Shown one piece after another: positions 1,868-38,738 of a stretch of DNA of 39,183 nt. This stretch comes from a virus, in IMG/VR virus record IMGVR_UViG_3300018023_000021, positions 1 to 39,183 of that record, one strand, 5' to 3'. The translations under genes and the position numbers were made by a program. Position 1 is the first letter of the stretch. Each line of letters begins with the position of its first letter. Below the pieces are notes generated by a model. It had not been told where the DNA came from. It saw only the letters and a list, made by a program, of their open reading frames with translations, and searched no databases.

Positions 1868-1979
1868 TGTGTTTGGCCTTCCATATCGTGCAATTTGGGC
1901 ATAAACCGTTGGGAGGTGGTGTAACCTGTATCGCTCCACAACGTTTGCATCGCCGATCAGTTATCGTAATTTTTCCCAT
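1857..1979 (-). CDS. 40-residue zinc-ribbon protein
   Basis: This short gene starts at an ATG sharing its A with the TAA of the upstream large tail gene (TAATG junction). A strong purine-rich GGAGGTGGAGGA lies just before it, so it is probably translated by coupling. The product contains CKRCG and CPNC, two CxxC knuckles 12 residues apart, the signature of a zinc ribbon. It ends by overlapping the start of the fibre gene by 11 bases. Its function is unknown. Such small zinc ribbons bind nucleic acid or stabilise protein assemblies. The tight coupling on both sides argues that it is real. Confidence 0.7.
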   Translation of the reverse strand: MGKITITDRRCKRCGAIQVTPPPNGLCPNCTIWKAKHNGN

Positions 1980-4900
1980 TATCCTCCACCTCCATTTTCA
2001 GCAAAGGGCTGCACCTCTCTGTACGCCCCTGTCGATCCCCAATCTTTTACTTGCACCACAAAGTCTTCCAAATTAAGTTGAAACTGCACTGTTGAAGTAA
2101 ACTGAAACCACAACAACTTCCACTTGCTCGCGCCGCAAACAAGTTTTAATTTCGTCAGCGCACCGCTTGACGAGGGAATCGTAATAGCTGGTGGCCCATA
2201 ACTGCCGTTATCCGCATCCGCCGCATAGCCGGTCAGCGTAATCGTAGACGTGGAAGAATATTCCACAATCAATACCGGCCCCAGCGTCTGCCATCCCTTT
2301 CCCCCGATCGCGGGAGTCTGCACAATGGCGGTTCCTGTTTCCGTGCCGCCGCTGGCTAGCTGACGAATGCTGCCATCGTTGCAACCTACCAGCACCCCTT
2401 GCTGGCTCAAACCTTCGTTGGTTGCGTGGATTGTGGCTGGCCATTCGTACACATCCCACACCCAGCCCATCGCCTGAATATCAAAAACCAGTGTCCGCGG
2501 CACATTGGTCGTGTCAACATAGTCGTAGTAAAGATATCCGTTTACAATCGAAAATTTTTGTAATTGCGATTGTGTGTCATCGGGCGGATAGATCGTTACA
2601 CCTTCTCGCGTCACCGGCTGAGGAACGCTTGTTCCACCATCCTCGTTTTCATGCGGAAAAATTGGATACAAACTATCGTCGGTAATCGACTTTGACGCGC
2701 CGCCTCCAGGTGAAAAGTGAATTCCGTCGTCCACGCGAAAGAAAATAAGTCCGCCGCCCTCGATCGCTACACAGCGCGGCATAAACAGCCCGCGGTTAAT
2801 GCTCGTGGCTTGCAAGGTCCAGGTTGATCCCGTGGTTCCCGTTACAGTGGCAAGAGCATTAAAAAAGTTAGGCATAATAACCCATGCCCGTCGGATCGAA
2901 AACAGCACACCCCGCCCCCCAGACATGGCGCCGTTAACCAGAGGCTCGCCAGGATCGGTTACGTCCATTTGGTTAGTATCCGGCGCCGCATCAAGATTCG
3001 ATCCTGAGCACCAATAAAGTGTTCCCGGTCGCAGCGTATCACCTACACCAAATGTGTAGTTAATATTATCCGTGGGGCCAAATAGATACGGCAACGGCTG
3101 AGCGGCAAGAATGGGTTCGGAAATTTCATAAGCCAGATCTGTTCCATCAGGAACACCAGGAATCGTAATTTCGTTGACAAAACCGTCAGGAACAACAATG
3201 CCCTTATCCGTAAAGATTACCGTTCCGCTGACCGTCGTACCTCCCGTAGTGCTAAAGGTCGGGGTTGTGCTGCCTGAAATTCCCGCCGTTGTAACAAGCT
3301 GGTAATGGCCATTGGTATCTTCAATGACCCAGTCCAATGCATATGCGGTTAAAGCAGCAAAATTACTGGCTGAGGGGCGCGAAATGAAGGTATAGGCCAA
3401 GGAAGTCGGGGAACCTATTTTAATGATTGTTCCCGCTAGCCATCGCGTATTAAATCCAGTAGCTGTACCTCCAATCGCCCCCCCGCTGACCCAAGTAATT
3501 ACGTTACTTGAAACTGTACAAATTCCTTTTTGCGGCAAATCAATCGAAGGAAAGGGTTCGTAATTGGTGTAAACAAGTATATTTGTGCCAAGTTCAGTAT
3601 CCGTCAGCGAATCAGAAACTGGAGTATTAGTTCCCCCTCCGCCAAGGTCATCATTTGGCCCCGTGCAAACGTACGTAAAATCTGTAATAGCGGAATCGAC
3701 ACGGTAATAATCAACCTTGTCTACTTGAGGATCGTTCGACCAATTTGACGTAATGGTGTTTGCTTTGACAGGAACAGATTCCGCCGTCGACTCAGGCGAA
3801 GGATTAGAAGTCGCTCCCGTTGCGCTGGAGCGATACGTGTAGCGATACTGCACCTCTTCTCTAACCGTGTCGCTCAAGGGAAGAACAATCGTTGGCGTGG
3901 TCACGCCAGAGATTGTTGATGAGGCAGTGGGAGAAACCATCAAAAGAAGAATACGGCCGGAGTGGTACCAAAAGTCATAGTCGATCTCGATTGAATGAAT
4001 TCCTGCTGACGCAAAATGTAAAATCACGGTCGTAACCGTGCATTGGCCACCTTCGTTGTAATAAGTGCCGTTATATTTCAGCGGAGCAACAGGAAGAAGA
4101 GCAATTCCGCTTACCACCGAAATAGTTTGCCCGTAAGAAGATATTTGAGATTTGCTTAATGAAACCGTTCCGGCAGTTGTTTCTTCGTTACCGGTCATGT
4201 ATGTTGCACTCGCCGAAACAAAGGTGGGGCTTCCGCCAATACCCCAGATTGTTTGATCTTTATTGGTTAGAACAAATTTGTAATATCCACCTGCAGGAAT
4301 ATAAATGCTTCCGGTCAAGCAAAAATTAAAGTTTGTATACGTCGTACTGGTTGTATATGTCGATGTGAGAGGCGAGGCAAACACGGCATTTGAACCTGAA
4401 ACAACGCCCTCCGCAGTCAATTGAAACCATTCCATCGGGTTATTTATAACGTAATCAGAAGTTCCGTTAGAAATATCCACGCCAGGCAATCCAGGTATTC
4501 CGGCGGCAAGGGGTGGAACGCACGCCGTTCCAAACGAGGCATCAAAAATAAAGGAATTTCCTGTTGTACTTCCGTCCGCATTTGACGTAGAGCGAGTTGG
4601 TCCACTTCCGCCAGAATCGTCTGGATTTTTCCAGATGTAAGACCCAACTTGGCCTGACGACGGAGAATCTCCCCAGTAACTAAGCGACAATGTGCCGAGT
4701 GTGGATACAACCAACGGCAATGCATTTGTTGTTACTGTTACCGTAATGCTAAAAGAACCAGAGTTATTGCTAAAGGTGTTTCCAGTCGAGTCAATGCCGA
4801 TTTGCATCGATACGGCCGTGCTGGGAACAGTAATTTCTACACCCAGATTTCCACCCACGTCCACAATATTTTTGATATAAAGCGGTGCCTGTCCAGCGGC

Positions 4901-6244
4901 AATCACGTTGCCGTCGCCATCCGTAAACGCTCCAATAATGATCGATGGAACTGTCGACGGAGGAGACACTCCGCCCGTAGGTTGTACGTAGTAACCTGGA
5001 TTGGTCGAGGCCAGCGGTAGCCCTGTGGCCGTCGGGGTTGTGATTACGTTTCCGTTGATAATCACCGTGTCCGTGGGATCAGGAATAGTAATTGTCACGG
5101 TGGTCGCATTTTGCACGTTTACCGTGTACGGTGCGGTTCCATCAACAGGTGGAGTGGTATTTGGGTACCCTTCGGTTTCGCCGTAATCAAAATCCGAGTT
5201 TGTTCCTGTCGGATAGTTTGTCCAAGGAATCGCCGTCGCGTAAAGCACTCCGGTTGTCGTCACACTAGAATTTTCGGTGGAGACAGAAGGAGCAAGTTGC
5301 GGCTCCTTAATGCCCATTTTGTAGCAAACATTATCCGACCGAACCTTCATCATACCGTTCGATGGGAAATTATCAGCGGTATGGCCACCGCTGGCATTGG
5401 TAATTAAAAATTCCGTTTCGAGAGTAACGTCTCCTTGTATAGCCGAATCGCCAACATACATCCACGGCTGCACTGAAGAGTTGGGCCTAAACGGAATCAT
5501 CGAAACCGGATTGCCACTTAAACCAATCGCTACCACGGCAGTGCTAGAAAACAAAGTAGTATTGACGCCAGTCATTAGCACATATCCATTCGCTGGTCCG
5601 TTGGGCGTGGAATCGTTTAAACGACGAATTGTATGTAGAGCGGCAGGAGTCGTGTAATAAATTGTGACTACGACACTGTTGACATAGGTTGTGGCTGTTA
5701 TGCCGCTTAAGTTATCTACTTCAAATACGGGTGTAAATCCAGCGTTGATAATTGCCGGAGTGACAGTCGCGCCCCATAAAGAAGTGTTGCCGCCAAACGT
5801 ATATGTTGCCGCTGTTGTTGTTAGTGTTGCTTTATCAAGGGTTGCTCCAGAAATTCCAAGTCCAAACGATAACGATTGCGATCCCGATGTGGCATAAGCG
5901 TTGCAAGTTATTTTTATGCCCGCGATCGTTGCCGTCGTTGGAATTGTTTGTGCGCCAATCGCTAACGATAACGTGCCTGATCCCATATCGGCAGCTACAG
6001 AAACTGATGTAAATAATGAGGTAGATGTTGCATTTGCAGGATTAGTCCAATAACTACTGCTGCAAGTAAGAGTCGGAACGAGCGTAAACGGATTTCCAAC
6101 GGTTTCAATCGCATTTGTAAGCAAATTGCGAAAGTTGACGCTACCAGCCGAATAGGTACGGACGTTTTGAGCAATGCTTACCGATCCGCTAGGCTCGCGG
6201 TTTGGGGGGTGAGTTAAATCGAAACCTTTAAAATTAAGCGCCAC
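1979..6244 (-). CDS. Very large beta-rich tail/neck structural protein
   Basis: The product has about 1,421 residues from GTG at 6244, which has AAGGG five bases upstream and gives (M)ALNFKGFDL. The frame stays open upstream to 6340, but that part coincides with repeat element copy 2, so I prefer the downstream start. The sequence is Ser/Thr/Gly/Val-rich and beta-strand dominated, with no signal peptide or coiled coil. About residues 1220-1340 contain aromatic-rich blade-like strands (FSIVNGYLYYDYV, MGWVWDVYEWPATI, VLVGCNDGSIRQL), suggesting a beta-propeller. It lies just after the 443-residue gene, in the place where short-tailed phages encode tail hub or needle proteins. The exact role is not recognised. 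Confidence 0.7.
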   Translation of the reverse strand: MALNFKGFDLTHPPNREPSGSVSIAQNVRTYSAGSVNFRNLLTNAIETVGNPFTLVPTLTCSSSYWTNPANATSTSLFTSVSVAADMGSGTLSLAIGAQTIPTTATIAGIKITCNAYATSGSQSLSFGLGISGATLDKATLTTTAATYTFGGNTSLWGATVTPAIINAGFTPVFEVDNLSGITATTYVNSVVVTIYYTTPAALHTIRRLNDSTPNGPANGYVLMTGVNTTLFSSTAVVAIGLSGNPVSMIPFRPNSSVQPWMYVGDSAIQGDVTLETEFLITNASGGHTADNFPSNGMMKVRSDNVCYKMGIKEPQLAPSVSTENSSVTTTGVLYATAIPWTNYPTGTNSDFDYGETEGYPNTTPPVDGTAPYTVNVQNATTVTITIPDPTDTVIINGNVITTPTATGLPLASTNPGYYVQPTGGVSPPSTVPSIIIGAFTDGDGNVIAAGQAPLYIKNIVDVGGNLGVEITVPSTAVSMQIGIDSTGNTFSNNSGSFSITVTVTTNALPLVVSTLGTLSLSYWGDSPSSGQVGSYIWKNPDDSGGSGPTRSTSNADGSTTGNSFIFDASFGTACVPPLAAGIPGLPGVDISNGTSDYVINNPMEWFQLTAEGVVSGSNAVFASPLTSTYTTSTTYTNFNFCLTGSIYIPAGGYYKFVLTNKDQTIWGIGGSPTFVSASATYMTGNEETTAGTVSLSKSQISSYGQTISVVSGIALLPVAPLKYNGTYYNEGGQCTVTTVILHFASAGIHSIEIDYDFWYHSGRILLLMVSPTASSTISGVTTPTIVLPLSDTVREEVQYRYTYRSSATGATSNPSPESTAESVPVKANTITSNWSNDPQVDKVDYYRVDSAITDFTYVCTGPNDDLGGGGTNTPVSDSLTDTELGTNILVYTNYEPFPSIDLPQKGICTVSSNVITWVSGGAIGGTATGFNTRWLAGTIIKIGSPTSLAYTFISRPSASNFAALTAYALDWVIEDTNGHYQLVTTAGISGSTTPTFSTTGGTTVSGTVIFTDKGIVVPDGFVNEITIPGVPDGTDLAYEISEPILAAQPLPYLFGPTDNINYTFGVGDTLRPGTLYWCSGSNLDAAPDTNQMDVTDPGEPLVNGAMSGGRGVLFSIRRAWVIMPNFFNALATVTGTTGSTWTLQATSINRGLFMPRCVAIEGGGLIFFRVDDGIHFSPGGGASKSITDDSLYPIFPHENEDGGTSVPQPVTREGVTIYPPDDTQSQLQKFSIVNGYLYYDYVDTTNVPRTLVFDIQAMGWVWDVYEWPATIHATNEGLSQQGVLVGCNDGSIRQLASGGTETGTAIVQTPAIGGKGWQTLGPVLIVEYSSTSTITLTGYAADADNGSYGPPAITIPSSSGALTKLKLVCGASKWKLLWFQFTSTVQFQLNLEDFVVQVKDWGSTGAYREVQPFAENGGGG

Positions 6245-6260
6245 TTTGCCCTTGTCTGGT

Positions 6261-6338
6261 AAAACAGCAATGGCCCAAAACCATTGCTGGTCTTGAGCCA
6301 TTGCTTGTTCGCCACAGGGCGAGGGCATGTTGCTCGAC
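6261..6338 (-). promoter_or_regulatory. Two-hairpin RNA element, copy 2 (no U-tract)
   Basis: It has the same order as the other copies: GAGC, CATGCCC, a first hairpin (TCGCC-CTGT-GGCGA), AACAAGCAATGGCTC, then a 14-bp hairpin AATGGCTCAAGACC/GGTTTTGGGCCATT with two wobble pairs. The first stem differs completely in sequence from copy 1 but still pairs, which supports an RNA fold. Unlike copies 1, 3 and 4 it lacks the following T-run. It sits directly before the chosen start of the large tail gene, so here it is a 5' leader rather than a terminator. Confidence 0.7.
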
Positions 6339-6375
6339 AACTTATTTTATACTTTTCATTATTTCATATTTAAAC

Positions 6376-9453: not shown

Positions 9454-12400
9454 CTATGGCAAATACAAACCGGTTGCAGTTGACGCCCCACAATCACCCG
9501 TCGTGATAGTTAAAGTTCCAATTGGTAGCGTTCCAGCCGTAGTACAACGATAAACTTGATTAGTGCCGCTATTTATTGATGCGGTACCAACGACAATTAG
9601 TTTATAGCCAGAATCTGTACCATTACCTATGGACACATTACCACTGCTAAAAATAACCAAGCCGTCCCGCCCATAAATATTTATTAATCCATAATTTGAT
9701 GCCGATCCAGTTCCGCCTGAATTAATAAAATTAAAGTCTAGTGCATTATAGTTTGAAACATCGGTACCTAATATTATTCTTGTATAATTGCCAGTTCCAA
9801 TATTGGGGCCTAGAAATATTGCTCCTGTAATAATACCTGTTGAAGTATTAGTAAATGTGCTGTACGTGCTACCGCTTTCCGTAATTACTCCCGTGCTAAG
9901 CGTGCCTCCGATTGTAGTATTACCCGCGGAGCTCACGCTAAGCACGTTAGTTCCTTGCTTTACTAACTCAAATAAATTTCCAGTAGATGCAGTTGTATCC
10001 TCTCCACGAATAATAGCGCCGGTCGAGGTATACGAACCAAGAGTTTGATTTCTGTAAGCGTATAAAGTCGAATGTGTGGTAGAAGCTGTAAGTGTTCCAT
10101 CCTGCATAAAATATCCTGCTTCATTACTTAAACTTTCACCTTCTACACCTGTTCCTGATGTGCTAGATCCGTACACACCTTCGCCACTTGTAGCATTTCC
10201 CCATATAGCGTTTCCGCTAGTGGCGCTTCCTTGAACACCTACTCCACCTGTGCCCGTTACCGATCCAAATACGCCAATTCCAGCACTACCACTGTTAATA
10301 GCAGAAAGCAAAGCTACATTTGCTATTGCTCCACTAAACGTATTGGTTGTTGAACCACTCTCCGTAATTGGGCCTGTACTTAAGCTGGTCAACGTGCCCA
10401 CGCTCGTAAGGCTAGAACTTACCACATTACTCGCCAAGGTAGTACCGCTAAGTATGCTTGCAAGTAACGGCGTAGCTGATGCACTTACATAATCGGTGTT
10501 GGTGCTGCCATATTGCAACATAGGAGCAGAAAAACTTACCGTGTTAGCAGTGGTAAAGACTACAGAAGGATCGTTCCAAAGTATTTGTACTGACGTAACG
10601 CCGGTAGGGATTGTAAATAACATAAGAATACGGCTTTGACTCTGACCAACCGTCAAATAATAATTTTTAATGTTTGTTCCTGAAGGATAACTTGGATTAG
10701 TACTATCTATTACGATTACATTTAGATTTACTTGGCCACTAGTTGCACTAGACTCATTCATGCAAGCAGTTAATGTATAAGTCGCTCCAGGAACAACATC
10801 AACCGGCTCAAGCCAAACGTCTGCTGCAGTGCCACTTGTTGTGGCAACAAAAGCAGTAGTATCTTGGCAACCTACCCCCGAAACTACTGCTGCCGCACTT
10901 GTGGCGTTCCATACTGAGGTGCCCTGAACAAAATCCGTATCTTGCAAAAGATTTGGCTGGACTTTTTGCTGAAAATCATCTGTTTGTTCAAATATGTTTC
11001 CGAAGCCCGCCGTAGATGGCGGGTAAATCGCTATAGAAATGCCACTGATGTAATTGAATGTGGCAGCTGCACCCATTACCAATGAATTTCTACTAGGACT
11101 GTCCCAAGCCACAAAATCAATAAAGCGATTAAATGAAATCTGGCTTGCAACCGTACCTGTCATGTTGAGGTAGTTTCCGGTCTGACCTTCGCACTGAAAC
11201 TTCGAGACAATATTGCCATCAATACTGTCTCCAGCGACTCCCTGAGACCCTGTATTCATCGTAATGCAATTCACGGGAGATACAGCCACAAAATCATCAA
11301 TAATATTGCCGTTGATAAATTGTCCTCCCGATGTTCCAGTTCCAACACTATTATCCATATCAAGGGCGTTTAAAAATCCTGTTGTACGCACATGCTCTAG
11401 TTTTACAAACGTTTGATATTGTGTTCCTGTAGTATTATCCGTCAAAAATGCAATTGCATTTCCAGTTGTACCATTGCTAAATATGTTTGCATCTTGAAGA
11501 AGGGTTGTATCGGCCCCTGCAATAGTCGTGTCAAAAACGACTACATTGCCATAATACGGCGATGTAGAAACTGGGCAGTTTGCGTCAGCATTAACACTTA
11601 ATCCTATAAGCTGACCGTTTTGTTCAATTTCAAACACTTTTGATCCTGCCACACAAAGCGCAGAACTTGGCCGAAACGTAGTCGCATTGCTCATAATTAC
11701 TTTTATAGGGTTATTTCCACTATTTCCTACAGTGACTGTTGCAGCAATTGTTTGATTTGTTGCACCGTAACCAGTTGCATCGCAAATGCCGCCAGTTAAA
11801 GTAGTAAGTTGCGCAATACAAGCATTTAACTGTACATCAGCTGTTGCACCAGAAAACTGTTCTACTTTATATACATTATTAAGGCTTTTTGCAGTTGCAT
11901 TTCCAATGTTGGGCGTTACTAGCGTTGGACTAGTCGCCAAAACCACACTTCCGCTGCCGGTCGTACTTGCTACCACAAGCTGCGACGAACTGTTACTGCC
12001 AAGAACCGTTGCCGATGCTGGTATTGCTGCACCATTAATTCGAACTACAGTCGCTACTAACGATCCAGATCCTGGCCCAGCAAGCACGTCTCCAGTCAAT
12101 TGCGTTATGCCAGCAACTATATTTGTTCCAGGATACATCCCTGTAAGAGTAACTGCAGAGGAATAAACATTGGGACTTATGCCACCGCTTAACGAAACAT
12201 CGTATCCTTGGTTTGCAGCCGCAAAAAACAGCCAATAGCCAGGATTGGTTGACGATGCCGCATTTGCGGTAAACGGATTAGTTAATGGCGTTTCGCTTGA
12301 ATCGGAATAGATCGTTGCTAGTGTCGTAGTCCCGGTTAAATAGACCTTAACAGTGCAACTAGGGATAATACCTAGCAAATAATTTGACGACGACAAACCA

Positions 12401-12510
12401 GAAGTAACCGACTGCGCGCCGCCAAGGTTGCAATAGCCGTTAATCGCGGCAATTTGCGCTGACGCGCTTACGGTAAAAATCAACACGCATAAAGCATAAA
12501 GATGCTTCAT
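9454..12510 (-). CDS. Large fibre-like protein with signal peptide and carbohydrate-binding-like domain
   Basis: The protein has 1,018 residues, with AAGGA before ATG 12510. The N-terminus MKHLYALCVLIFTVSASAQ looks like a Sec signal peptide cut after ASA. Residues about 130-500 are Ser/Thr/Gly-rich with parallel-beta-helix-like character. Residues about 525-680 look like a carbohydrate-binding jelly roll of the CBM4/9 type (LLQDTDFVQGTSVWN, then PGATYTLTACMN). Residues about 720-800 carry GVxGxxTSGxGVxG repeats. The C-terminus resembles short fibre tips ending in a Gly-rich segment. A receptor-binding fibre is the likely role. A Sec signal on a virion protein is odd because phage assembly is cytoplasmic. 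Confidence 0.7.
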   Translation of the reverse strand: MKHLYALCVLIFTVSASAQIAAINGYCNLGGAQSVTSGLSSSNYLLGIIPSCTVKVYLTGTTTLATIYSDSSETPLTNPFTANAASSTNPGYWLFFAAANQGYDVSLSGGISPNVYSSAVTLTGMYPGTNIVAGITQLTGDVLAGPGSGSLVATVVRINGAAIPASATVLGSNSSSQLVVASTTGSGSVVLATSPTLVTPNIGNATAKSLNNVYKVEQFSGATADVQLNACIAQLTTLTGGICDATGYGATNQTIAATVTVGNSGNNPIKVIMSNATTFRPSSALCVAGSKVFEIEQNGQLIGLSVNADANCPVSTSPYYGNVVVFDTTIAGADTTLLQDANIFSNGTTGNAIAFLTDNTTGTQYQTFVKLEHVRTTGFLNALDMDNSVGTGTSGGQFINGNIIDDFVAVSPVNCITMNTGSQGVAGDSIDGNIVSKFQCEGQTGNYLNMTGTVASQISFNRFIDFVAWDSPSRNSLVMGAAATFNYISGISIAIYPPSTAGFGNIFEQTDDFQQKVQPNLLQDTDFVQGTSVWNATSAAAVVSGVGCQDTTAFVATTSGTAADVWLEPVDVVPGATYTLTACMNESSATSGQVNLNVIVIDSTNPSYPSGTNIKNYYLTVGQSQSRILMLFTIPTGVTSVQILWNDPSVVFTTANTVSFSAPMLQYGSTNTDYVSASATPLLASILSGTTLASNVVSSSLTSVGTLTSLSTGPITESGSTTNTFSGAIANVALLSAINSGSAGIGVFGSVTGTGGVGVQGSATSGNAIWGNATSGEGVYGSSTSGTGVEGESLSNEAGYFMQDGTLTASTTHSTLYAYRNQTLGSYTSTGAIIRGEDTTASTGNLFELVKQGTNVLSVSSAGNTTIGGTLSTGVITESGSTYSTFTNTSTGIITGAIFLGPNIGTGNYTRIILGTDVSNYNALDFNFINSGGTGSASNYGLINIYGRDGLVIFSSGNVSIGNGTDSGYKLIVVGTASINSGTNQVYRCTTAGTLPIGTLTITTGDCGASTATGLYLP

Positions 12511-12527
12511 CGCTTATTCCTTTGCTG

Positions 12528-12803
12528 TTACTTAATTGCAGTCGGTTTAACTTCCTTGCTTTCCAGCTTTTTCTCTATCGGTTTCTTCTTTTCTTGCTCG
12601 ACACGCAATGCATTTTGTGTGTTTTGAACTTCCTGCTGAATCTGCGGGGCTTGGCATTGTAAAAATGCAGACTGCAATTGCAAAACCTGCAACTTAAGCT
12701 GCGCTATTTGCGCCTTTAACTCAGTTACTGTTGGTTCATTTGTTTGCTGAGAAAAAGCTGGAATAGCCAGCAACAAAAACAATACATATACAATCTTTTT
12801 CAA
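12528..12803 (-). CDS. Small exported coiled-coil protein
   Basis: Ninety-one residues starting at TTG 12803, with AAAGGAGAAGACC before it. KKIVYVLFLLLAIPAFS is a clear signal peptide. Residues 25-65 form a coiled coil (VTELKAQIAQLKLQVLQLQSAFLQ). The tail is Lys/Glu-rich. No lipobox cysteine is visible. Size and shape recall spanin subunits or periplasmic spacers, but neither is shown. It lies between two other genes with signal peptides, and the three look like one secreted module. Confidence 0.65.
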   Translation of the reverse strand: MKKIVYVLFLLLAIPAFSQQTNEPTVTELKAQIAQLKLQVLQLQSAFLQCQAPQIQQEVQNTQNALRVEQEKKKPIEKKLESKEVKPTAIK

Positions 12804-12826
12804 GGTCTTCTCCTTTTCGCTTTAAA

Positions 12827-14302
12827 CTAGTAACCACATTGGTAATGGATGGTGTACGTCGTACTAGCCGATGGCGCGCCAAATGAGTAGCGGGTAAACC
12901 CGGTACTGGTTTCCACTGTGTAGTCCGTTGCCCCAAGTGACGTTGGTGTGTGCACCTCGGCCGAGCAGTTTGGGTAGTATGTTTGTGCTGATCCGTATAG
13001 CACTACCGTAACTTCAGTGCCAGTCGTTGTAGCTGTACCGGTTGCAAGCGTCAAATCGCCGCTATTAGTAGTGCAAGTGTGATTTGTTGCGCAAACGCAA
13101 CTCGCGCCCGTGCCGGCTGCTACACCAGGAGTGCAAGAAAAGTTAGTAGAAACACCGGCATAAACTGACGATGTAACTGTTCCTAAAAACGTAGTCGGCC
13201 CTTGATAACCTGTAACTAAGGTGCAGTTTGTGATTGAAGACAAATTAAACCCAAAGGCAACATAGGTTGTAGTGCCAGACGCACAAACCACACCTGATCC
13301 TGTCCCAGTGATCAAGCCGCTAATCGCATGGAGTGTTGAAACGGAGTTGGCCGTCGGCAAATAGATATTTGCAGTTCCCGCCACTGTATTTAAAAGTCCA
13401 CCACTTAAAAGCAACTGACCGCCTGAGGTCATGTCGATGTTATATCCACTTGACTTGGTCATATTCGGGTTGTACATCGCCAATAATGCGCTGCTGCCAC
13501 CCGATTTAATTTTCATGCTTCCAGTTAGCGCTTCACCGTATAATGTCCCATTTACAGTCAGCGTATAGCTGTTTCCGCTTAAATTTGTTCCGTAAATATG
13601 GTTGTAGCAACTCGCGCCAAGCGTTACATTTCCGCCGCTATAGCTGCCGCCGTGGCGCTCACTACGTATTGTGCTAGAGCAAGTGGCATATGTCGTCACT
13701 CCAACTGTATTTAAGTCATAAATGATTGTCGGCAAGGAATTAACCGTTACTCCGCCACTAAAAGTCCACGTCGAGCTATTTCCATAGATGGTTATTGGAA
13801 TTGCCGGTAAAGTTGCGGCAGACGAAACAGAATAGGAAGAGTTCGGACTTGTAAAGATTGATGCCAGTCCCGTACTAGGTAAAGCAGCCGTTAAAGCTGA
13901 AAGTGTTTTGTATGGGCGTTCAATTGTTCCATCTGCTGTGTATGTGTCTGTTCGGTTTGCGTCCAGAGTCAACATGGCAGTGTCGGTTGCAGGGTAAACA
14001 AAAGCCGTTGTGCTTGCGGCAGTTTGGTATGGCTGCGCGCCAGTGGAACCGTTCAATAAACTTGCAGCGGTGGCCGATGATCCTCCCGAGCCAAATGCAA
14101 CATACGTACCACCATTGCAATAGTACGGAACCCATGTTGTCGTCAAAGTAAATACAGAGCTGCCGCTGCATGAGGACGGAAGCGGTGCTCCCGACTGAAA
14201 CGACGTTGCCGTGTAATTTCCAACAATAATCTGCCCATGCGCCGCTGTAGCCACTATTTCCATCACAAATATTGTCGAAAATAATGCAATCAGCTTTTTC
14301 AT
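12827..14302 (-). CDS. Fibre-like beta-helix protein with signal peptide
   Basis: The product has 491 residues from ATG 14302, behind CGAGGTAGAGCG. The N-terminal region MKKLIALFSTIFVMEIVATAAHGQ is a signal peptide, probably cut after AHG. Next come an 'SGAPLPSSCSGSSVFTLTTTWVPYYCNGGTYV' adaptor and beta-helix-like repeats rich in Ser, Thr, Gly and Asn (residues 130-350). The C-terminal 100 residues contain several Cys pairs, fitting disulphides in an exported protein. TIERPYKTLSALTAAL resembles the start of pectate-lyase-like tail spikes. No catalytic residues can be assigned. Confidence 0.65.
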   Translation of the reverse strand: MKKLIALFSTIFVMEIVATAAHGQIIVGNYTATSFQSGAPLPSSCSGSSVFTLTTTWVPYYCNGGTYVAFGSGGSSATAASLLNGSTGAQPYQTAASTTAFVYPATDTAMLTLDANRTDTYTADGTIERPYKTLSALTAALPSTGLASIFTSPNSSYSVSSAATLPAIPITIYGNSSTWTFSGGVTVNSLPTIIYDLNTVGVTTYATCSSTIRSERHGGSYSGGNVTLGASCYNHIYGTNLSGNSYTLTVNGTLYGEALTGSMKIKSGGSSALLAMYNPNMTKSSGYNIDMTSGGQLLLSGGLLNTVAGTANIYLPTANSVSTLHAISGLITGTGSGVVCASGTTTYVAFGFNLSSITNCTLVTGYQGPTTFLGTVTSSVYAGVSTNFSCTPGVAAGTGASCVCATNHTCTTNSGDLTLATGTATTTGTEVTVVLYGSAQTYYPNCSAEVHTPTSLGATDYTVETSTGFTRYSFGAPSASTTYTIHYQCGY

Positions 14303-14306
14303 CGCT

Positions 14307-14684
14307 CTACCTCGTTAGCAGCACCGATACATTCACGGGATTTGTTAAAGCGACTAGTTTTACGCGCACGTATTTCGTATAAAACGACGGCGATTCTATG
14401 CGCGTTACATACGAAGCATTTAGTCCGACCGTGATCGCGTCAACCGTTACGTAATGTGAATCCATATCGATATCTGCATCCTGAAGATCAACTTCAAAAG
14501 CGCCAGGATTTCCACTAAAGAAAATCTCTAGCGAAATACCCCACGGATAAAACGTGCGGTTAACTCTTTCAATTTGGAAGGCAATGCTTGCCTCCCCCAC
14601 CGCAACCGTTTCGTTGTTCCACAAATATTTCTGGTTGTTGTCACGAATCAATGCAGCTTGTGCTGTTCCCGCATAGCCTGGCAT
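14307..14684 (-). CDS. Phage protein of unknown function, likely structural
   Basis: A 125-residue protein with an ideal GGAGG six bases before ATG 14684. It reads as an all-beta domain (AFQIERVNRTFYPWGISLEIFFSG, then VTVDAITVGLNASYVTRIES) and has no membrane segment or cysteine cluster. Its position just after the connector gene suggests a small virion or tail-attachment protein. Its family is not recognised. Its ribosome binding site lies inside the promoter region of the divergent HNH endonuclease gene. Confidence 0.6.
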   Translation of the reverse strand: MPGYAGTAQAALIRDNNQKYLWNNETVAVGEASIAFQIERVNRTFYPWGISLEIFFSGNPGAFEVDLQDADIDMDSHYVTVDAITVGLNASYVTRIESPSFYTKYVRVKLVALTNPVNVSVLLTR

Positions 14685-14713
14685 TACAAACCTCCTGCAT
14701 AACTGGGTATAAT
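14684..14713 (+). promoter_or_regulatory. Candidate sigma70 promoter for the HNH gene
   Basis: TTACAA at 14684-14689 and TATAAT at 14708-14713, spaced 18 bases, with TGGG before the -10 box. It points toward the HNH endonuclease on the plus strand. This gives the gene its own transcription against the direction of the phage operon. Confidence 0.5.
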
Positions 14714-14734
14714 AAAAAAGCGGTTGAACACCGC

Positions 14735-14755
14735 AATCTCATTCAAGGTGAGATT
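14735..14755 (+). promoter_or_regulatory. Hairpin masking the HNH ribosome binding site
   Basis: AATCTCA (14735-14741) pairs with TGAGATT (14749-14755) around the loop TTCAAGG. The only ribosome binding site, AAGGTGAG, lies in the loop and 3' arm, and the ATG follows at once. A second small hairpin (GCGGT/ACCGC, 14720-14734) abuts it. The arrangement resembles the translation-blocking hairpins known upstream of phage T4 homing endonuclease genes such as I-TevI. Confidence 0.55.
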
Positions 14756-15274
14756 ATGGCCAAGCGTCGCGTCGAGCGCGAGCCTGTTGTCCAACCGCTC
14801 GATCAATCTATCAAACTTATTCCACTGACAAAAGGCCAAGTTGCAACTGTCGATGTTGCTGATTACGAATGGCTGATGCAATGGCCTTGGAATGCTTATT
14901 GGCACCCCAGGACCAAAAGCTATTATGCCAGACAAGCTCATGGAAAATTGATGCACCGTCTGATCCTTGGCCTGACAGATCCAGCGATTAAATGTGATCA
15001 TCAAGATGGCGATACATTGAATAACCGTCGTTATAATCTTCGCGTTGCAACTGATCAACAAAACGCTCAAAATCGTAAAACAAGAAGCGACAACAAATGT
15101 GGCCACGTTGGAATATGGTGGAGAAAAGACGTGCAGATGTGGCAAGCGTCGATTTTTGACAACGGGAAGCCTCGTCATTTGGGATACTTCCGTAACTTTG
15201 ATGATGCTTTTTTCGCGCGCAGTATGGCGGAGATCGAAGTGTTTGGTCAGTTTGCGCCAATTTTGCGTCATTAG
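14756..15274 (+). CDS. HNH homing endonuclease with AP2 domain
   Basis: 172 residues from ATG 14756. The nuclease core has HRLILGL, then DHQDGDTLNNRRYNLR and QNAQNR, the HNH_3 pattern with its catalytic His and Asn. The C-terminal part GHVGIWWRKDVQMWQASI…HLGYFRNFDDAFFARS is an AP2-type DNA-binding domain. This domain pair is typical of free-standing phage homing endonucleases. The gene is inserted on the opposite strand between two structural genes. It ends by overlapping the stop codon of the convergent connector gene by four bases, which suggests a clean insertion. Activity and target are unknown. Confidence 0.92.
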   Translation: MAKRRVEREPVVQPLDQSIKLIPLTKGQVATVDVADYEWLMQWPWNAYWHPRTKSYYARQAHGKLMHRLILGLTDPAIKCDHQDGDTLNNRRYNLRVATDQQNAQNRKTRSDNKCGHVGIWWRKDVQMWQASIFDNGKPRHLGYFRNFDDAFFARSMAEIEVFGQFAPILRH

Positions 15275-16284
15275 CTTCCCCAGTTGCCCAAATTTAGTTG
15301 TCCAGTAACACTTGAATACGGCTCACCAAATGCAGACGGCAAACGTTGCATCTTGCTAAAATACAGATCCACTAGACTGCGATCCATTACGCGAATATGT
15401 TTAAGCCGGTCATCGTATTCGGCTCGCGCCGCTTGCAATAGGAATTGCCAATTCGCTCCCGCGCCGCGCTCCATCTCATCGCCCTTTTGTGATTCCTTCC
15501 ACAAATAGAGCATTTCGTACGCACGCAACTTAACTAACTCGTCATTTAGCGGATACGGCACGGTGTCAGATGGATTGCTTAGCGACGGCCAATTCGCTTG
15601 GCAAGCGAACGTATAAGGGAGTTGCGTAATCGGATGCGGCCACAGCTCATACAGCATTTGGCCGTACGTTGTACTTCCCGCGCGCGTATCCATCTTGTAC
15701 GGCACCACATACAGCGGCTCGTCAAAATCGGTTCGTTCGGCATCTTGCTCCGAAAGATCGATTTCCGTTCTGCTCCACCAATCCATATAATTGTTGTTGG
15801 TGGTATCGCGAATGTTGTACCAGCGCTTAAATCCAGGCGGCGCGGCATAATACGCTTGGTAGATCATGTATGTGCCGCTGGTTTGCCTTGGTTCCATCCA
15901 TGGCCGATCAATAGTCAATACCACTGCGTTAGGATTCGATACGTTTGCAGAAATAATGTTGTAAAGCGAATAGTAAGGAACGCGTATTTGTTGCTGCGTA
16001 AGTAATGGAGGGCTGATTAATGCTGCTGTCCACGCGGCAGAAGCCGTTGCATCCCCTGTAATAGAGGTAGTAAATGGCGTAACGGTAATTCTTCCTGGAC
16101 TAAGGAATTCCGTAGTCGGTCCGCCCAGCAATCCAGGCGTTAGCCAACCGCCATCAATTAGCTGGAAACTCCAAACGTTTTCATTCTGAATTGCAGCAAA
16201 AGCCTCATTGAGCTTAGTGGTCACTAAGCCAAAGTTTGTTCCCGGAATTCCTAATAGCTCTTGCCGCATGTTTTGAAGTGCCAT
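15271..16284 (-). CDS. Head-tail connector/adaptor-like protein
   Basis: A 337-residue protein from ATG 16284 with AAAGGC upstream. The helical N-terminus (MRQELLGIPGTNFGLVTTKLNEAFAAIQNENVW) and the helix-rich end (DELVKLRAYEMLYLWKESQKGDEMERG, then WQFLLQAARAEYDDRLK) flank a beta-rich middle. This layout is common in neck proteins of short-tailed phages encoded between capsid and tail genes. I cannot name a family. The role is inferred from shape and position. It is separated from the upstream decoration gene by a terminator. Confidence 0.55.
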   Translation of the reverse strand: MALQNMRQELLGIPGTNFGLVTTKLNEAFAAIQNENVWSFQLIDGGWLTPGLLGGPTTEFLSPGRITVTPFTTSITGDATASAAWTAALISPPLLTQQQIRVPYYSLYNIISANVSNPNAVVLTIDRPWMEPRQTSGTYMIYQAYYAAPPGFKRWYNIRDTTNNNYMDWWSRTEIDLSEQDAERTDFDEPLYVVPYKMDTRAGSTTYGQMLYELWPHPITQLPYTFACQANWPSLSNPSDTVPYPLNDELVKLRAYEMLYLWKESQKGDEMERGAGANWQFLLQAARAEYDDRLKHIRVMDRSLVDLYFSKMQRLPSAFGEPYSSVTGQLNLGNWGS

Positions 16285-16363: not shown

Positions 16364-17371
16364 TTAAAACTGTCCGACAAACGCTAAAAGCTGAACGGTT
16401 TCTCCAGATAAATTTTGCCCGGATACAACCTCTGATCCAATTGAAGCTGCTGCACTCACAGTCACATTGGTTGCCCCCGAAATGGTTACTGCGCCTGTCG
16501 TAGTAAGTGCTCTGCCATTAAGTGTGCCGCCGCCAAGGGTAACCCCACTTACCGTCAAAATGTTTCCGTTTACTGTCGAAGTTGCTACCGAGGTAAAAGC
16601 GCTTCCAGCTACAAAAACCACATTTGCGGCTTGTGCGCCGTTAATCAGCGCAACCGTCTGTCCACTAGCAAGGTTGATCGTTGATCCCGCAACGAACACA
16701 AACACAGCACTTGAATTTCCTTGAGCGTCCAGAATAATTCCCGTAGGCATTGTCAAACTGGTCGACCCAAAATAATATCCTGGCGTGTAAGTCGATGCTG
16801 TCGAGCCATTGCCACCCGTGCTTAGATTGGTCAGGCCAGACAATGTCGGGGTCAACCCCTGGTAATAAATGATTGCCGCCGTCAACGCTGTTTGCGCAGC
16901 GGATGCAGCGGTGTTGTCAATTACCGCCGGAGAAGTCAAAGTGCCTGGAGGAAATCCGCTAATGCTTGTGGTGGGATAGCTTCCGATGTTCCCACCCGTA
17001 ATGACGGAACTTCCAGTGTTTGTGATGCCGGAGTATGCCAGCAACGCGTAATTAGCGGCTGTGCCAAGGCGTGTCGTGACAACGGAGCCCCCACCGCTAG
17101 TGCTTGCAAGAAACCAACGTAAATACCACTGCTGCCGAACGCCAATTCCCGTGGGATTGGCATAAACCACGTAATTTTTGCTTATGCTTTCTTCGCCGCC
17201 GATAAGCGCATCAATGTAGTAATTCGACAAGTTCAGTGTTACCAAATCTCCTGTACCAGCAACGTAAGCCGTCGGTCCAGTACCACTTCCGACAAAAAGT
17301 CCGCGCCGTCCAACAAATTCTGGATAGAGTGGACCTGCTCCGGTACCTTTTCCGATCGCTGTAAGAATCAC
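16364..17371 (-). CDS. Decoration-type protein with inserted ice-binding-like (DUF3494) domain
   Basis: 335 residues, GTG start at 17371 behind AAGGAGCAATT. Residues 1-94 and 308-335 are clearly paralogous to the whole neighbouring 120-residue protein: both begin with LTAI-KG-GAGPLYP and end with LSGE-VQL-A-VGQF. Between them, residues about 101-305 read as a complete DUF3494 ice-binding-protein domain (PF11999). The signature blocks are LGTAANYALLA, TNTGSSVITGGNIG, GFPPGT, AAQTALTAA, LDAQGNSSAVFVF, LINGAQAANV and GNILTV, then TLNGRALT-TGAVT. The known fold is a right-handed beta-solenoid that binds ice or acts as an adhesin-like domain. A role on the virion surface is inferred from the paralogue and from the capsid neighbours. 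Confidence 0.85.
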   Translation of the reverse strand: MILTAIGKGTGAGPLYPEFVGRRGLFVGSGTGPTAYVAGTGDLVTLNLSNYYIDALIGGEESISKNYVVYANPTGIGVRQQWYLRWFLASTSGGGSVVTTRLGTAANYALLAYSGITNTGSSVITGGNIGSYPTTSISGFPPGTLTSPAVIDNTAASAAQTALTAAIIYYQGLTPTLSGLTNLSTGGNGSTASTYTPGYYFGSTSLTMPTGIILDAQGNSSAVFVFVAGSTINLASGQTVALINGAQAANVVFVAGSAFTSVATSTVNGNILTVSGVTLGGGTLNGRALTTTGAVTISGATNVTVSAAASIGSEVVSGQNLSGETVQLLAFVGQF

Positions 17372-17392
17372 AATTGCTCCTTGCTGCGACTG

Positions 17393-17755
17393 TTAAAACT
17401 GACCAACCAGCGCACCAAGCTGAACAGACTCGCCTGAAAGGTTAGTCGTACTTGTCACTTCGGTTCCGACCGTGCCAGCAGATGCCAAAGCGTAGAACCA
17501 GCGTAGATACCATTGCTGTCGTGCACCAGTTCCTGCAGGTGCTGGGTAAACCAAATACTTGCCGCTTACGCTTGTTACGCCACCGAGAAGAGCATCGATA
17601 TAGTAGCTAGGCAAGGGCAATGTCACCAGATCTCCCGTGCCAGAAACGTAGGATGCAGGCCCAGTACCATATCCGACAAAGGTTGCGCGTCGACCGATAA
17701 AGTCCGGATAGAGTGGACCAGCGCCACTGCCTTTTACGATCGCTGTGAGAACCAT
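17393..17755 (-). CDS. Small decoration-type protein, paralogue of the upstream-inserted form
   Basis: 120 residues from ATG 17755, with AGGAG five bases before it. It is the uninterrupted version of the framework seen in the 335-residue neighbour: GAGPLYPDFIGRRATFVGYGTGP, then SYYIDALLGG, RQQWYLRWFYA, and the end LSGESVQLGALVGQF. Tandem duplication followed by domain insertion in one copy is the simplest explanation. The location directly after the capsid and putative decoration genes suggests a head-surface or accessory head protein. No named family was recognised. Confidence 0.7.
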   Translation of the reverse strand: MVLTAIVKGSGAGPLYPDFIGRRATFVGYGTGPASYVSGTGDLVTLPLPSYYIDALLGGVTSVSGKYLVYPAPAGTGARQQWYLRWFYALASAGTVGTEVTSTTNLSGESVQLGALVGQF

Positions 17756-17826: not shown

Positions 17827-18693
17827 CTAGTCCTGGACTACCGGCACGCCGTTCATGTAAATCTTGAACAGATTGGAGGCAACAGGTTTATCAACCGCTT
17901 GACCAACAGTCGCGGCAATCGGAGATCCACTTGCAGCAGTCGATGTAACTGTTCCAGCCGCGCCAGTGCCAATGGTATTAACCCAATCGCCGACATTTGC
18001 CGTACCAATTGTCGCGTTGCCCAAGACCGTTGCCGTGCCAAGTTCCTGAACAAAGCCGTAGTTGCCCGGCGTAATCGAGTTCAAGAACACAACCGGCCGA
18101 ACGGTGCCGACACCCGGCAACGCAGCATTACCAGCCGTAGCAACGTCGTAGCTAGTCACAAGATTCGGAGTGGTGTTTAGCTGCGCAGCGACCGTGCCGC
18201 CATTTGTACCGGTCACCGTCAGCGAGAACGATGGAACAGAAGTGTAGCCGTAGCCAGACTGCACAACGGTCGCGCTGGTGATCGTTCCCGTAGAGCCAAC
18301 AACAACCTGAATCACCGCATTAAAGCCGCCGCCGCTGCCAACAGTTGCAGCAATGTTATAGGTTCCCGTTGTCGCGCCTGTGCCGGCTACCGTAATCACA
18401 ACGCTAGCAACAGTGCTCCCAGCGCGCACGTAGCCAACGGTTCCGGTCTTCACATTTGCCGCCGTGGCGCCAGAATCGACTTGCACAAAGCGATAACGCC
18501 CAGCAAACAAAATGCCATTGGTCGTATATGAACCTTGGTAAGCTTCTTGGTTAGTAGCGTCAAAGAAATCGCCAAGATTTAGTCCACCAGCCGCAAACGG
18601 TTGGCCAGTACGGAAATCCGTAATCGCAGTCGGCGAAGTAAAGTTTCCGTTATTCCATGCCAACCAAGTAGGTACGATCGGTTGAAAGGGCAT
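17827..18693 (-). CDS. Capsid decoration/head fibre-like protein
   Basis: A 288-residue protein from ATG 18693 with AGGAGAAAATC before it. The N- and C-terminal parts (PTAITDFRTGQPFAAGGLNLGD, then TPGNYGFVQELGTATVLGN and GDWVNTIGTGAAGTV) resemble small head decoration proteins in which a beta-barrel domain is exposed on the capsid. Residues about 95-165 add a Gly-rich beta unit ending in SGYGYTSVPSFSLT, a motif common in phage fibre and decoration proteins. It directly follows the major capsid gene, which supports a capsid surface role. Confidence 0.65.
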   Translation of the reverse strand: MPFQPIVPTWLAWNNGNFTSPTAITDFRTGQPFAAGGLNLGDFFDATNQEAYQGSYTTNGILFAGRYRFVQVDSGATAANVKTGTVGYVRAGSTVASVVITVAGTGATTGTYNIAATVGSGGGFNAVIQVVVGSTGTITSATVVQSGYGYTSVPSFSLTVTGTNGGTVAAQLNTTPNLVTSYDVATAGNAALPGVGTVRPVVFLNSITPGNYGFVQELGTATVLGNATIGTANVGDWVNTIGTGAAGTVTSTAASGSPIAATVGQAVDKPVASNLFKIYMNGVPVVQD

Positions 18694-18708: not shown

Positions 18709-19941
18709 TCAGGCAGTAAATCCAAACGCGTAATTGGAATGCCGCGGCTGGGTGTTGTATAAATTGGTGCCAAGCCGCATGAACAAAGCATCAATGCTCA
18801 CGTTGTTCGGCATGGGCGCGCGCCGCAGTCCAAAGTTCCAACCCTTCTTATTTGTCGGGCGGATCTTGAAGCTTTCTGGCTCCAGGAAATAAAGCACTTC
18901 AGACGGCTGAATCGTCGCATTCGAAGGCAACCCAGAACCGGTCGGCGATACAGATACAGGAGCGCCATTCTTCGTAAACTGCGGCGTGGTAAACGAAACC
19001 GTCGCCGTGCTCGATCCAACGCCGTCAGCAAGATTTGTGTTTCCAGCCGCGCCATTGGCTGGTGCCAGTTCAAGATAGTTTTGAGCCTGAACGGAAGGAG
19101 CTAACGGATCGGCATAAATGTCAACGCCGTTAAAGTTCAGACCATCCCACTTAATGTCGTGCTTGGTATTCGAAATATCGCGACGCTGCGCATCAAGCGC
19201 AACCGCAACAGCCTTAAATCCAAACACGTTTGTAATGCCCAACGTCGGATTGCCGCCGGTCACTTTGCACTGCGACCAAAGCTGCATCAGCGCCGCAAAA
19301 TCAATTTGACCAGTTGCGCCAGTCGATGTACCCAAATACAGCGGCGTGGTATTTAGCGCTGTACCAATATTTCCATTGCGCGCCTGGCCACCGTAAGTGG
19401 TATAAATGTTGCCGTACACCGAGGGATCAATTCCGTTATTCAGCGCTTCATCCAGGCCATTGATCGTCTTAATACGATTGTCCTGAACGGTCGTCGAAGA
19501 AGGCTGGCCGTGGCGGAACGAATCCATCTCTTGCATGGTGTTCATGGTCATAACCATGGCTTCCATGAAGAGCTGGTACTCATCCACAATCCGCGACGGG
19601 CCGGAATTGATAACGCCTCCGGTGCCGGAGCCATCATCCATTTCCCAGTCATCCAGCGGATACCAGGTCGCATACGCCTTCGGCAGGAACTTGATGCCGG
19701 TGTTGATCTGCTGGCGCGTAACCGTCACGGTCTGGCCAGGATTCACCGCTGCACCCTGCGTACGCCCGTACAGGATGCCTTCCATCATGCCCGCGCCGCC
19801 TAGGAACTCGTCCCAAACACCAGCACGACGCAACTTAGCCTGAAAGGGGGTATCCACGAACAAGTTGTTATAAACTACATTTTTGCGGACGCTTTCGAGG
19901 TTACTAGCGTCAATCTCGTTATACAGAGGATCTTGTGGCAT
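18709..19941 (-). CDS. Major capsid protein
   Basis: 410 residues from ATG 19941. There is no strong ribosome binding site, and a GTG two codons upstream is possible. The N-terminal region (NLESVRKNVVYNNLFVDTPFQAKLRR), a central TRQQINTGIKFLPKAYATWYPLDDWE, a long spine-like helix (RIVDEYQLFMEAMVMTMNTMQEMDSFRHG) and the C-terminal beta-rich domain fit an HK97-fold capsid protein. The context is decisive: scaffold-like and portal genes upstream, decoration proteins downstream. A LAGLIDADG endonuclease gene lies only 12 bases upstream and has taken the place of the normal leader. Confidence 0.8.
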   Translation of the reverse strand: MPQDPLYNEIDASNLESVRKNVVYNNLFVDTPFQAKLRRAGVWDEFLGGAGMMEGILYGRTQGAAVNPGQTVTVTRQQINTGIKFLPKAYATWYPLDDWEMDDGSGTGGVINSGPSRIVDEYQLFMEAMVMTMNTMQEMDSFRHGQPSSTTVQDNRIKTINGLDEALNNGIDPSVYGNIYTTYGGQARNGNIGTALNTTPLYLGTSTGATGQIDFAALMQLWSQCKVTGGNPTLGITNVFGFKAVAVALDAQRRDISNTKHDIKWDGLNFNGVDIYADPLAPSVQAQNYLELAPANGAAGNTNLADGVGSSTATVSFTTPQFTKNGAPVSVSPTGSGLPSNATIQPSEVLYFLEPESFKIRPTNKKGWNFGLRRAPMPNNVSIDALFMRLGTNLYNTQPRHSNYAFGFTA

Positions 19942-19953
19942 AATCACGACCAG

Positions 19954-20550
19954 CTAGGCAATAGCTAGAACTTTTTGAACTGTTGCCGTATGCTGCTCCT
20001 TTCGATTTTTCCAATCAATTCGAGCTTTTTCGTTCTTTGCTTGAAGCCAAGCTGGATCAGATGCTTTGCGCCGGTAATATTCCGCTTTTTGCTCCCTACG
20101 CGCTTTAGCAGTTGGGCTACTACGCCGTTCCCGTTCCTCTTCATAAAACGAAAGGAGACTATTTTTTAAAAAATCCATCGAAAGTCCGCTTGTAGACTTT
20201 CCTTTTAAAAACTCCAAGCTATTAGTTGCATCGACTTGTCCCTTACGCCGTGCCGTCAAAAATTCGTAAATAAGAGCTATAAAAATACGCGCGCGATCGC
20301 CACAAATCTCCCAAGAATGGCAACCGCTTTTATTTAGGCCACGGATACTTCCGCCAAACCAATCACGCAACCAATAAAGAAGTTCCGGATCTTTTTGTGG
20401 AACAGTAACCATAAATCCGCGTTTGGTATGCCCACACAACCGGCACGTCCCTTCGCCCTCGTAGATTCCTGCGGACCATGCGATATCAGTCGCGGTAGGA
20501 ATCTTTGTGGCTTCAAGCTCGGGTTTGTTTGGCCTTGTCCAGTTATTCAT
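19954..20550 (-). CDS. LAGLIDADG homing endonuclease, free-standing
   Basis: 198 residues from ATG 20550 (TTG at 20559 is an alternative). Residues about 25-37, AWSAGIYEGEGTC, form the LAGLIDADG helix with its catalytic acidic residue. They are followed by VTVPQKDPELLYWLRDWFGGSIRG, the usual beta-beta-helix of a monomer or half-domain. The last 60 residues are a Lys/Arg/Glu-rich helix. Only one LAGLIDADG motif is visible, so it would act as a homodimer. The gene sits between scaffold and capsid genes and is led by RNA element copy 4, as expected for an inserted mobile gene. Confidence 0.88.
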   Translation of the reverse strand: MNNWTRPNKPELEATKIPTATDIAWSAGIYEGEGTCRLCGHTKRGFMVTVPQKDPELLYWLRDWFGGSIRGLNKSGCHSWEICGDRARIFIALIYEFLTARRKGQVDATNSLEFLKGKSTSGLSMDFLKNSLLSFYEEERERRSSPTAKARREQKAEYYRRKASDPAWLQAKNEKARIDWKNRKEQHTATVQKVLAIA

Positions 20551-20571
20551 TGCAATCAAGCTTTCATGCCT

Positions 20572-32284: not shown

Positions 32285-33082
32285 GTTGCATCTGTTCGAT
32301 GCACTTTGCACGTTTACTATATCACTAGCACAAAAACGGATTTACGTAACGACCTATTTATACGTTCCTTGAAATTGTTGCATCTGCTCGATGCACTTAA
32401 AAACTTTGCTACTTTGGTCGTTTTGAACAAATCCGCACCATTAATGGTTGCATCTGTCCGATGCACTCAAAGCCAGATGCTACACTTATTCGCCTTGATC
32501 GTGCCTACGTGAATATCTGGTTGCATCTGCTCGATGCACTTAATTCCCGTTGCTATAAAACCCAAAAAGCCTTGCCCAGCTATAAAAAAGTTGCATCTGT
32601 TCGATGCACTGCTTGGAGAGTTTTGAATGTGATACTTATTCAGTACCCTTTGCGTTCTACCACTCCATTACATCAACTCAATTCAAGTTGTGCTTTTGCA
32701 CGGTTGCATCTGTGCGATGCACTGCAACTTGCTTACGATCCATACACGCGGCGCAAACCACGGACTTGCATGTGTTGCATCTGTTCGATGCACTAAAAAC
32801 ACGCTGCTACGACGTCCTAACCAGCACACTCCAACGATCATTACGTTGCATCTGTCCGATGCACTGAAAATCCGCTGTTACCGCCCCAAGGCAAATCGCC
32901 TCCGGCTTCACTCAAGCAGTTGCATCTGTCCGATGCACTGTAGCTTTTTTGCGACTGATTGTTTACGCACATTTCGTGCACCTGAAATAGTTGCATCTGT
33001 TTGATGCACTTTAGCTTTGTTGCGACAACCCACCCAGTGCAAATCGGCCCCAACCAAACACGTTGCATCTGCTCGATGCACT
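32285..33082 (+). repeat. Array of eleven 21-bp palindromic repeats
   Basis: Repeat starts are 32285, 32377, 32447, 32520, 32590, 32703, 32774, 32845, 32919, 32990 and 33062. Each is GTTGCATC + five-base centre + GATGCACT, with palindromic arms TGCATC/GATGCA. The centre varies (TGTTC, TGCTC, TGTCC, TGTGC, TGTTT). Start-to-start spacing is 70-74 except 92 and 113. The intervening DNA is mostly unique, but seven of ten spacers share a T-G-C-(T/G)-A-C-like motif about 11-16 bases after the repeat, and several a GCAMA motif near +30. The last repeat touches the stop codon of the XRE gene. No cas genes are seen. Confidence 0.95.
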
Positions 33083-38035: not shown

Positions 38036-38317
38036 TTACAAGCTAAGTTCTGAATGTGAGCCCATACGCGCGAGTTGCAAGGTGTTATCGTCCGGCTTGC
38101 TGTAGATCAAAACCAGGTCGGGGCGAATGTGGCAATCTCGGAAGTCTAGCCAATCTCCAGAAAGTGCATGATCGTAAAAAAGCACAGGAAGCGGCCCGTC
38201 ATTGGCCAGCATATTCAGGATCTTAGTCCAGTTTTCCCGGAGAAATTGACGGTGTTGTCCTCTCGCTTCGCGCTTGAAGTCCCGTTTGAAACGGGAAGAC
38301 TGGTTAATCGTTCGCAT
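38036..38317 (-). CDS. yafQ: YafQ-type mRNA interferase toxin
   Basis: 93 residues from ATG 38317, inside the end of the antitoxin gene (14-base overlap). YafQ family residues are all present: DHALSGDW (His), FRDCHIRPDLVLIY (Asp, His and Asp) and GSHSEL (last His), matching the E. coli catalytic set His50, Asp61, His63, Asp67 and His87. YafQ enters the ribosomal A site and cuts mRNA at Lys AAA codons. It sits with DinJ between direct repeats, suggesting transfer as a unit. Confidence 0.95.
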   Translation of the reverse strand: MRTINQSSRFKRDFKREARGQHRQFLRENWTKILNMLANDGPLPVLFYDHALSGDWLDFRDCHIRPDLVLIYSKPDDNTLQLARMGSHSELSL

Positions 38318-38717: not shown

Positions 38718-38738
38718 AGTGCATCGCACAGATGCAAC
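38718..38738 (-). repeat. Twelfth copy of the 21-bp palindromic repeat
   Basis: The minus strand reads GTTGCATC, TGTGC, GATGCACT, base for base the same as array repeat 6 at 32703. It stands alone, 5.6 kb from the array, and in reverse orientation in chromosomal-looking DNA. Confidence 0.9.

Follow-up and report, generated by a model that had tools for sequence, protein, structure and literature searches.

In an uncultured soil phage, one of two adjacent copies of a small protein from the head gene cluster carries a complete DUF3494 (PF11999, Ice_binding) domain, which by its sequence belongs to a virus-only lineage common to dozens of phage proteins. The phage is represented by a single linear IMG/VR record (IMGVR_UViG_3300018023_000021, 39,183 nucleotides), called the window for simplicity. 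The gene pair and its neighbours comprise the following features:

16364..17371 (-): 335-aa fusion protein, a small head-cluster core with an inserted DUF3494 domain (ORF, profile, BLASTP)
17090..17371 (-): N-terminal core of this carrier, residues 1-94 (BLASTP)
16448..17083 (-): DUF3494/PF11999 insert, residues 97-308, predicted solenoid with flanking helix (profile, AlphaFold2, Foldseek)
16367..16450 (-): C-terminal core of the carrier, residues 308-335, where the paralogue's last strand resumes (..NLSGE-VQL; BLASTP, AlphaFold2)
17393..17755 (-): 120-aa paralogue with the insertion slot empty (ORF, BLASTP)
17827..18693 (-): 288-aa protein downstream of the capsid gene (sequence reading)
18709..19947 (-): major capsid protein, podovirus type (sequence comparison)
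15271..16284 (-): 337-aa protein, probable head-tail adaptor (weak SU10_adaptor match)

The two ORFs are separated by 21 bases with the 335-aa ORF second, and each is preceded by an AAGGAG Shine-Dalgarno motif which, as read from the sequence, lies at the same distance from its start codon (GTG for the 335-aa ORF, ATG for the 120-aa ORF). The initial annotation had described both ends of the 335-residue protein as being like those of its 120-residue neighbour, and BLASTP bore out this homology: residues 1-94 are 68% identical and the last 31 are 58% identical. Where the 120-aa paralogue has a 17-residue linker, the larger protein has 232 residues. The two proteins are tandem paralogues that differ by about 210 residues (originally counted as about 205), and these extra residues of the larger one match PF11999.

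The Pfam match spans residues 111-301 and profile positions 2-206 of 208 (E 2.5e-33, 116 bits against a cut-off of 28.7). All PDB sequence matches were ice-binding or DUF3494 proteins, the best being 6eio (E 1e-23). In an AlphaFold2 model built from window and locus sequences, pLDDT was about 90-98 across most of the insert, and all 31 of the best significant Foldseek matches of this model in the PDB were DUF3494 ice-binding proteins, with AnpIBP at the top (TM 0.88). Profile and model together confirm the insert as a complete DUF3494 domain, predicted to form a beta-solenoid with a flanking helix as first proposed; neither of the outcomes that the initial annotation had named as refuting it came about. 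The fold is not Immunoglobulin-like. A crude hydropathy test detected no signal peptide or hydrophobic N-terminus in the 335-aa protein. Secretion signals are usual in cellular DUF3494 proteins without defining them.

Five further IMG/VR contigs, whose metagenomes bear different numbers, have the same gene pair at the same place. The fusion was present in all six contigs that have the pair, variant fusions occurred in other contigs, and all frames were open. Chance similarity or mis-assembly is therefore excluded, and we regard the idea of an assembly chimera as refuted, its probability being practically nil. Between the window and locus L006, codons of the insert differ synonymously in 82 cases and nonsynonymously in 14, and among divergent contigs the identity of the insert to the window (91-93%) exceeds that of the N-terminal part of the carrier (82-87%). 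This shows that the DUF3494 insert is under purifying selection.

Genes in this part of the window are ordered portal-like, scaffold-like, major capsid, 288 aa, 120 aa, 335 aa and 337 aa, which places the pair between the major capsid gene and a head-tail adaptor gene whose identification is itself weak. A phage region (L132) from an Acidobacteriales MAG (G187) shares this order, with a single plain version of 106 aa that lacks DUF3494. The nearest cultured capsid relatives of the window phage infect Tunturiibacter; among them is Tunturi_1 (PP887698), a podovirus of cold-soil Acidobacteriota whose major head protein is 27% identical to that of the window. Its unannotated gp10 (L087:8975-9301) is encoded between capsid and tail-protein genes, in the same gene slot as the 120-aa protein, and is a weak match to it (E 9e-7 in a small database). 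It is likely a homologue and would provide an experimental handle on the 120-aa protein in a cultured Acidobacteriota phage. The Tunturi_1 genome gave no PF11999 match, and its gp10 has no insert.

The gene position points to a head or neck protein, and the carrier is probably part of the virion. The initial annotation had named it a head or decoration protein; the neighbours are indeed typical of a head gene cluster, while the decoration part found no counterpart, as comparison of the carrier with known decoration proteins gave no PHROG, Pfam, PDB or BFVD match at E<=0.001. The fold model of the 120-aa protein, which is only moderate (pLDDT 74), likewise matched nothing in PDB and BFVD at E<=0.001, the best BFVD hit being an unnamed 113-aa phage protein (E 0.0056). 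A 'head decoration' PHROG match among the carriers was rejected as evidence: it lies in the middle of a large protein (L211) and not in a small carrier.

Comparison of related loci indicates that the site before the last strand of the small head-cluster protein is a module slot. The loop is empty in L132, L144, L145 and L146, holds 75-90 residues in the second copy of L148 and in L154-L156, and holds DUF3494 in the window group, L147, L148-L151 and L153. In L148-L151 and L153, the DUF3494 copy lies beside a copy with a small insert, and in L147 the fusion was found with no second copy in the locus. The initially proposed course of events, duplication followed by capture of a module, stands insofar as the BLASTP results and a core-only tree place the insertion in a tandem duplicate; as L147 indicates, duplication is no precondition. 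In the core tree, the DUF3494 carriers of the window group cluster with their plain 120-aa paralogues and the L147 and L148 carriers fall elsewhere. Because a single clade of carriers was rejected (p-AU 2.5e-9), DUF3494 appears to have entered the slot at least twice, a tree pattern which gene conversion between adjacent paralogues could partly mimic.

A 75-90-aa module with the pattern TGTY.V..GSGYT..PTFTLTGGTPAT was read from the sequences of four proteins and shows weak matches to Hc2 and baseplate PHROGs:

17827-18693 (window): 288-aa protein, residues about 90-170
L148:7977-8534: small head protein, in the slot
L154:7983-8537: small head protein, in the slot
L132:8595-9839: adaptor

Two scans of viral contigs yielded 88 distinct DUF3494 carrier ORFs of 239-2098 aa with many unrelated flank families; PF11999 matched in 31/31 representative carriers tested. 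In a quick domain tree, 70 viral domains formed one clade with no cellular members (SH-aLRT 94; 99 for the inner 61). Many non-homologous carriers hold domains of this clade, and the same domain occurs in several virion-type proteins, as expected of a promiscuous module. Phage carriers are not confined to the small head protein, as a large structural protein of the window illustrates:

1979..6340 (-): 1453-aa structural protein without DUF3494; its homologues in L207 (1290 aa) and L211 (1440 aa) carry the domain
2340..2350 (-): the corresponding empty site, LASGG / TETGTA (coordinate computed from the residue position)

The L207 and L211 proteins are 49% and 58% identical to it, respectively, and hold DUF3494 between '..IRQLAS.GG' and 'TE..TA'. 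L207 shares its contig with a DUF3494 small head protein, and the 86% identity of the two domains suggests copying between virion genes of one phage. The L199 carrier has tail-fibre PHROG matches. The carriers of L209 and L185 are encoded downstream of N4-gp56-type capsid genes, and the placement therefore recurs in phages with another capsid type. Since most individual carriers have no PHROG match, the term virion protein rests on the subset with tail-fibre matches, homology to window structural proteins or capsid neighbours. Among the listed carriers, the crude test picked up a signal-peptide-like N-terminus only in L169 and L171. Two DUF3494 domains per chain occur in L177:5449-7923, L184:4288-6810 and L228:4455-6968, each pair being split in the domain tree, and a stretch of ~60 aa beside DUF3494 (VYTGTITGGA.NA..GQ.F.VSGF.N..NNGTF..ST.TTLTL.N) recurs in L162, L176, L177, L183, L187, L228, L237 and L242.

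The module had initially been taken to be captured from a bacterium. Direct capture from a closely related cellular gene is contradicted by the virus-only clade and by an identity of only about 36-45% between the window domain and the best Acidobacteriales DUF3494 domains. Among 397 genomes of the same order, 56 matched the phage DUF3494 profile and one matched the carrier, and the genome scan with this profile gave no cellular relative with the two short patterns used. No match was obtained in 50,697 cultured phage records searched by tblastn with both proteins of the pair and with a cellular DUF3494 domain.

Several further features of the window were recorded:

141-530 (+): Endonuclease VII-like free-standing ORF
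14588-15274 (+): HNH_3-type free-standing ORF
19954-20559 (-): homing-endonuclease-like free-standing ORF (sequence reading only)
35361-36917 (-): complete lysyl-tRNA synthetase, closest to Acidobacteriaceae MAGs (71%; sequence comparison)
38036-38329 (-): YafQ-type toxin (PF15738) at the right end (profile)

The free-standing ORFs lie beside or between structural genes. The lysyl-tRNA synthetase, which was not found in five related phage contigs, and the toxin may represent host flank or phage cargo. The large terminase ORF (25691-29842, minus strand) appears to be interrupted by two inteins, as judged from N- and C-terminal intein splicing models and homing-endonuclease-like matches. In the structural region, three consecutive ORFs (9454-14302, minus strand; 1018, 91 and 491 aa) start signal-peptide-like, which is unusual for phage tail proteins; so does a 1524-aa ORF of L132. 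A palindromic 21-mer, GTTGCATCTGnnnGATGCACT, is present in eleven exact-pattern copies at 32285-33082 with a spacing of about 71 bases and unlike spacers of ~50 bases, a CRISPR-like layout of the wrong sizes. One more copy lies reversed near the right end (38718-38738, minus strand; 0.03 expected by chance), and among 284 loci only one copy was found (L282).

For AnpIBP, the segments of the ice-binding b-face have been defined (PMC7277481). They were mapped onto the phage domain via conserved sequence motifs, not superposed coordinates, and correspond in the window to SGITNT 114-119, GAVTIS 293-298, SGVTLG 275-280, SAFTSV 257-262, STINLA 230-235 and TSLTMP 204-209. Across 69 phage-clade domains, columns 1 and 2 are 95-98% A/G/S/T and column 4 is 75% Thr, and T/S/N occupies at least four of six rungs in every domain. 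Conservation in the outward columns 1, 2 and 4 exceeds that of random columns (P 0.016). On this motif-based mapping, the phage clade as a whole has kept the ice-binding face, and ice binding by the phage domain is therefore plausible. An all-Ala column 2 has been linked to strong ice activity and S/G/T to weaker activity (PMC12337378); column 2 of the phage domains is G/A/S/T, i.e. of the weaker kind by that account. The b-face pattern is a family trait and might have been kept for the sake of folding.

We propose that the product of the 335-aa gene is a second form of the small, all-beta head-cluster protein, with the solenoid in place of the surface loop that precedes the last strand. Its core would bind to the particle in the manner of the 120-aa version and display the solenoid on the outside. 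Through the flat, nearly uncharged and Thr-laddered b-face the virion would then cling to a surface, in cold soil most likely to ice or to freezing pore water, and particles would thereby remain with frozen-in hosts or be shielded during freeze-thaw. The fusion would be one product of a DUF3494 lineage of phages whose modules have repeatedly become part of different virion proteins. Surface binding by the displayed module is likely, ice as the ligand falls a little short of an even chance, and we consider the account as a whole, with ice as the most likely surface, to be evenly poised between right and wrong.

A displayed module could instead bind sugars of the host envelope or capsule, an extracellular polymer or a mineral surface, as is thought for Ig-like and other beta display domains of phages. 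This would fit with its presence in both tail-fibre-like and capsid-neighbouring proteins, with a slot that also accepts unrelated small beta modules and with the abundance of carriers in viral contigs of many metagenomes. We nevertheless consider it rather unlikely, given the retained ice-binding face pattern and a window domain sequence in which no groove or charged site is evident (two acidic and two basic residues of 212); moreover, among the adhesive domains of fibrillar adhesins, PF11999 has been described as the only one with ice and not cells as its target (PMC8286594). The tolerance of the slot for empty, 75-90-aa and 210-aa states is also what a neutral filler or capsid stabiliser would lead one to expect, that is, a rigid, stackable solenoid without ligand in a permissive loop. 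Such a role is improbable in view of the purifying selection on the insert, the repeated, independent capture of this one fold and the excess conservation of the outward columns.

Three PF11999 genes in Arctic marine vOTUs have been read as serving host cryoprotection (Rahlff et al., 2024; PMC11515562), and the window gene could accordingly be an auxiliary gene for an ice-binding protein made for the infected cell. This is highly improbable here: rather than standing alone as an unfused, host-type gene, the domain is joined in frame to a head-cluster protein inside a structural gene cluster, the product has no signal peptide, and among the other carriers are tail-fibre-like proteins and neighbours of capsid genes. 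S-SKS1, the only cultured phage that the same study names, gave no PF11999 match above threshold.

Display of the domain on the particle, which we favour, is without described precedent as far as the open-access literature (preprints excluded) goes: no report of DUF3494 in a virion protein was found there, nor any paper that names DUF3494 and phage together, in line with the initial annotation, and published viral PF11999 genes are read as cryoprotective. The phage domain is like AnpIBP (7bwx/7bwy), EfcIBP (6eio) and FfIBP (4nu2) in solenoid, flanking helix and b-face columns, but those ice-binding proteins are secreted, whereas the phage module resides in a structural-type protein without signal peptide and in a separate, virus-only clade. 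The Arctic genes are likewise phage-encoded DUF3494, but marine; here the domain is a module of a virion-type protein in phages linked to Acidobacteriota via their nearest relatives. Surface presentation is shared with Ig-like lipoproteins of Acidobacteriales that end in a C-terminal DUF3494; these appear from their sequence to be of the secreted cell-surface type, and their domain falls outside the phage clade.

Ig-like domains are a mobile beta domain found in many unrelated head and tail proteins of phages. DUF3494 is similarly mobile but differs in fold, and that fold has known ice ligands. Swappable beta domains of virions are known with ligands that are mostly unknown; since the DUF3494 fold has a well-studied one, the question becomes directly testable. 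Our data suggest that the particles of some phages expose a part that binds ice or a surface. A class of soil phages with ice-adhesive virions, in which phage-specific DUF3494 has repeatedly been put into head, neck or tail proteins and free particles bind ice and so stay with frozen hosts or survive freeze-thaw, is a possibility we raise tentatively. The phage domains are candidate ice binders for capsid display in the cold preservation of phages. If ice is bound, viral PF11999 genes now listed for host cryoprotection would need re-reading, and retention at ice fronts or protection from recrystallisation would provide a physical mechanism for phage ecology in freezing soils.
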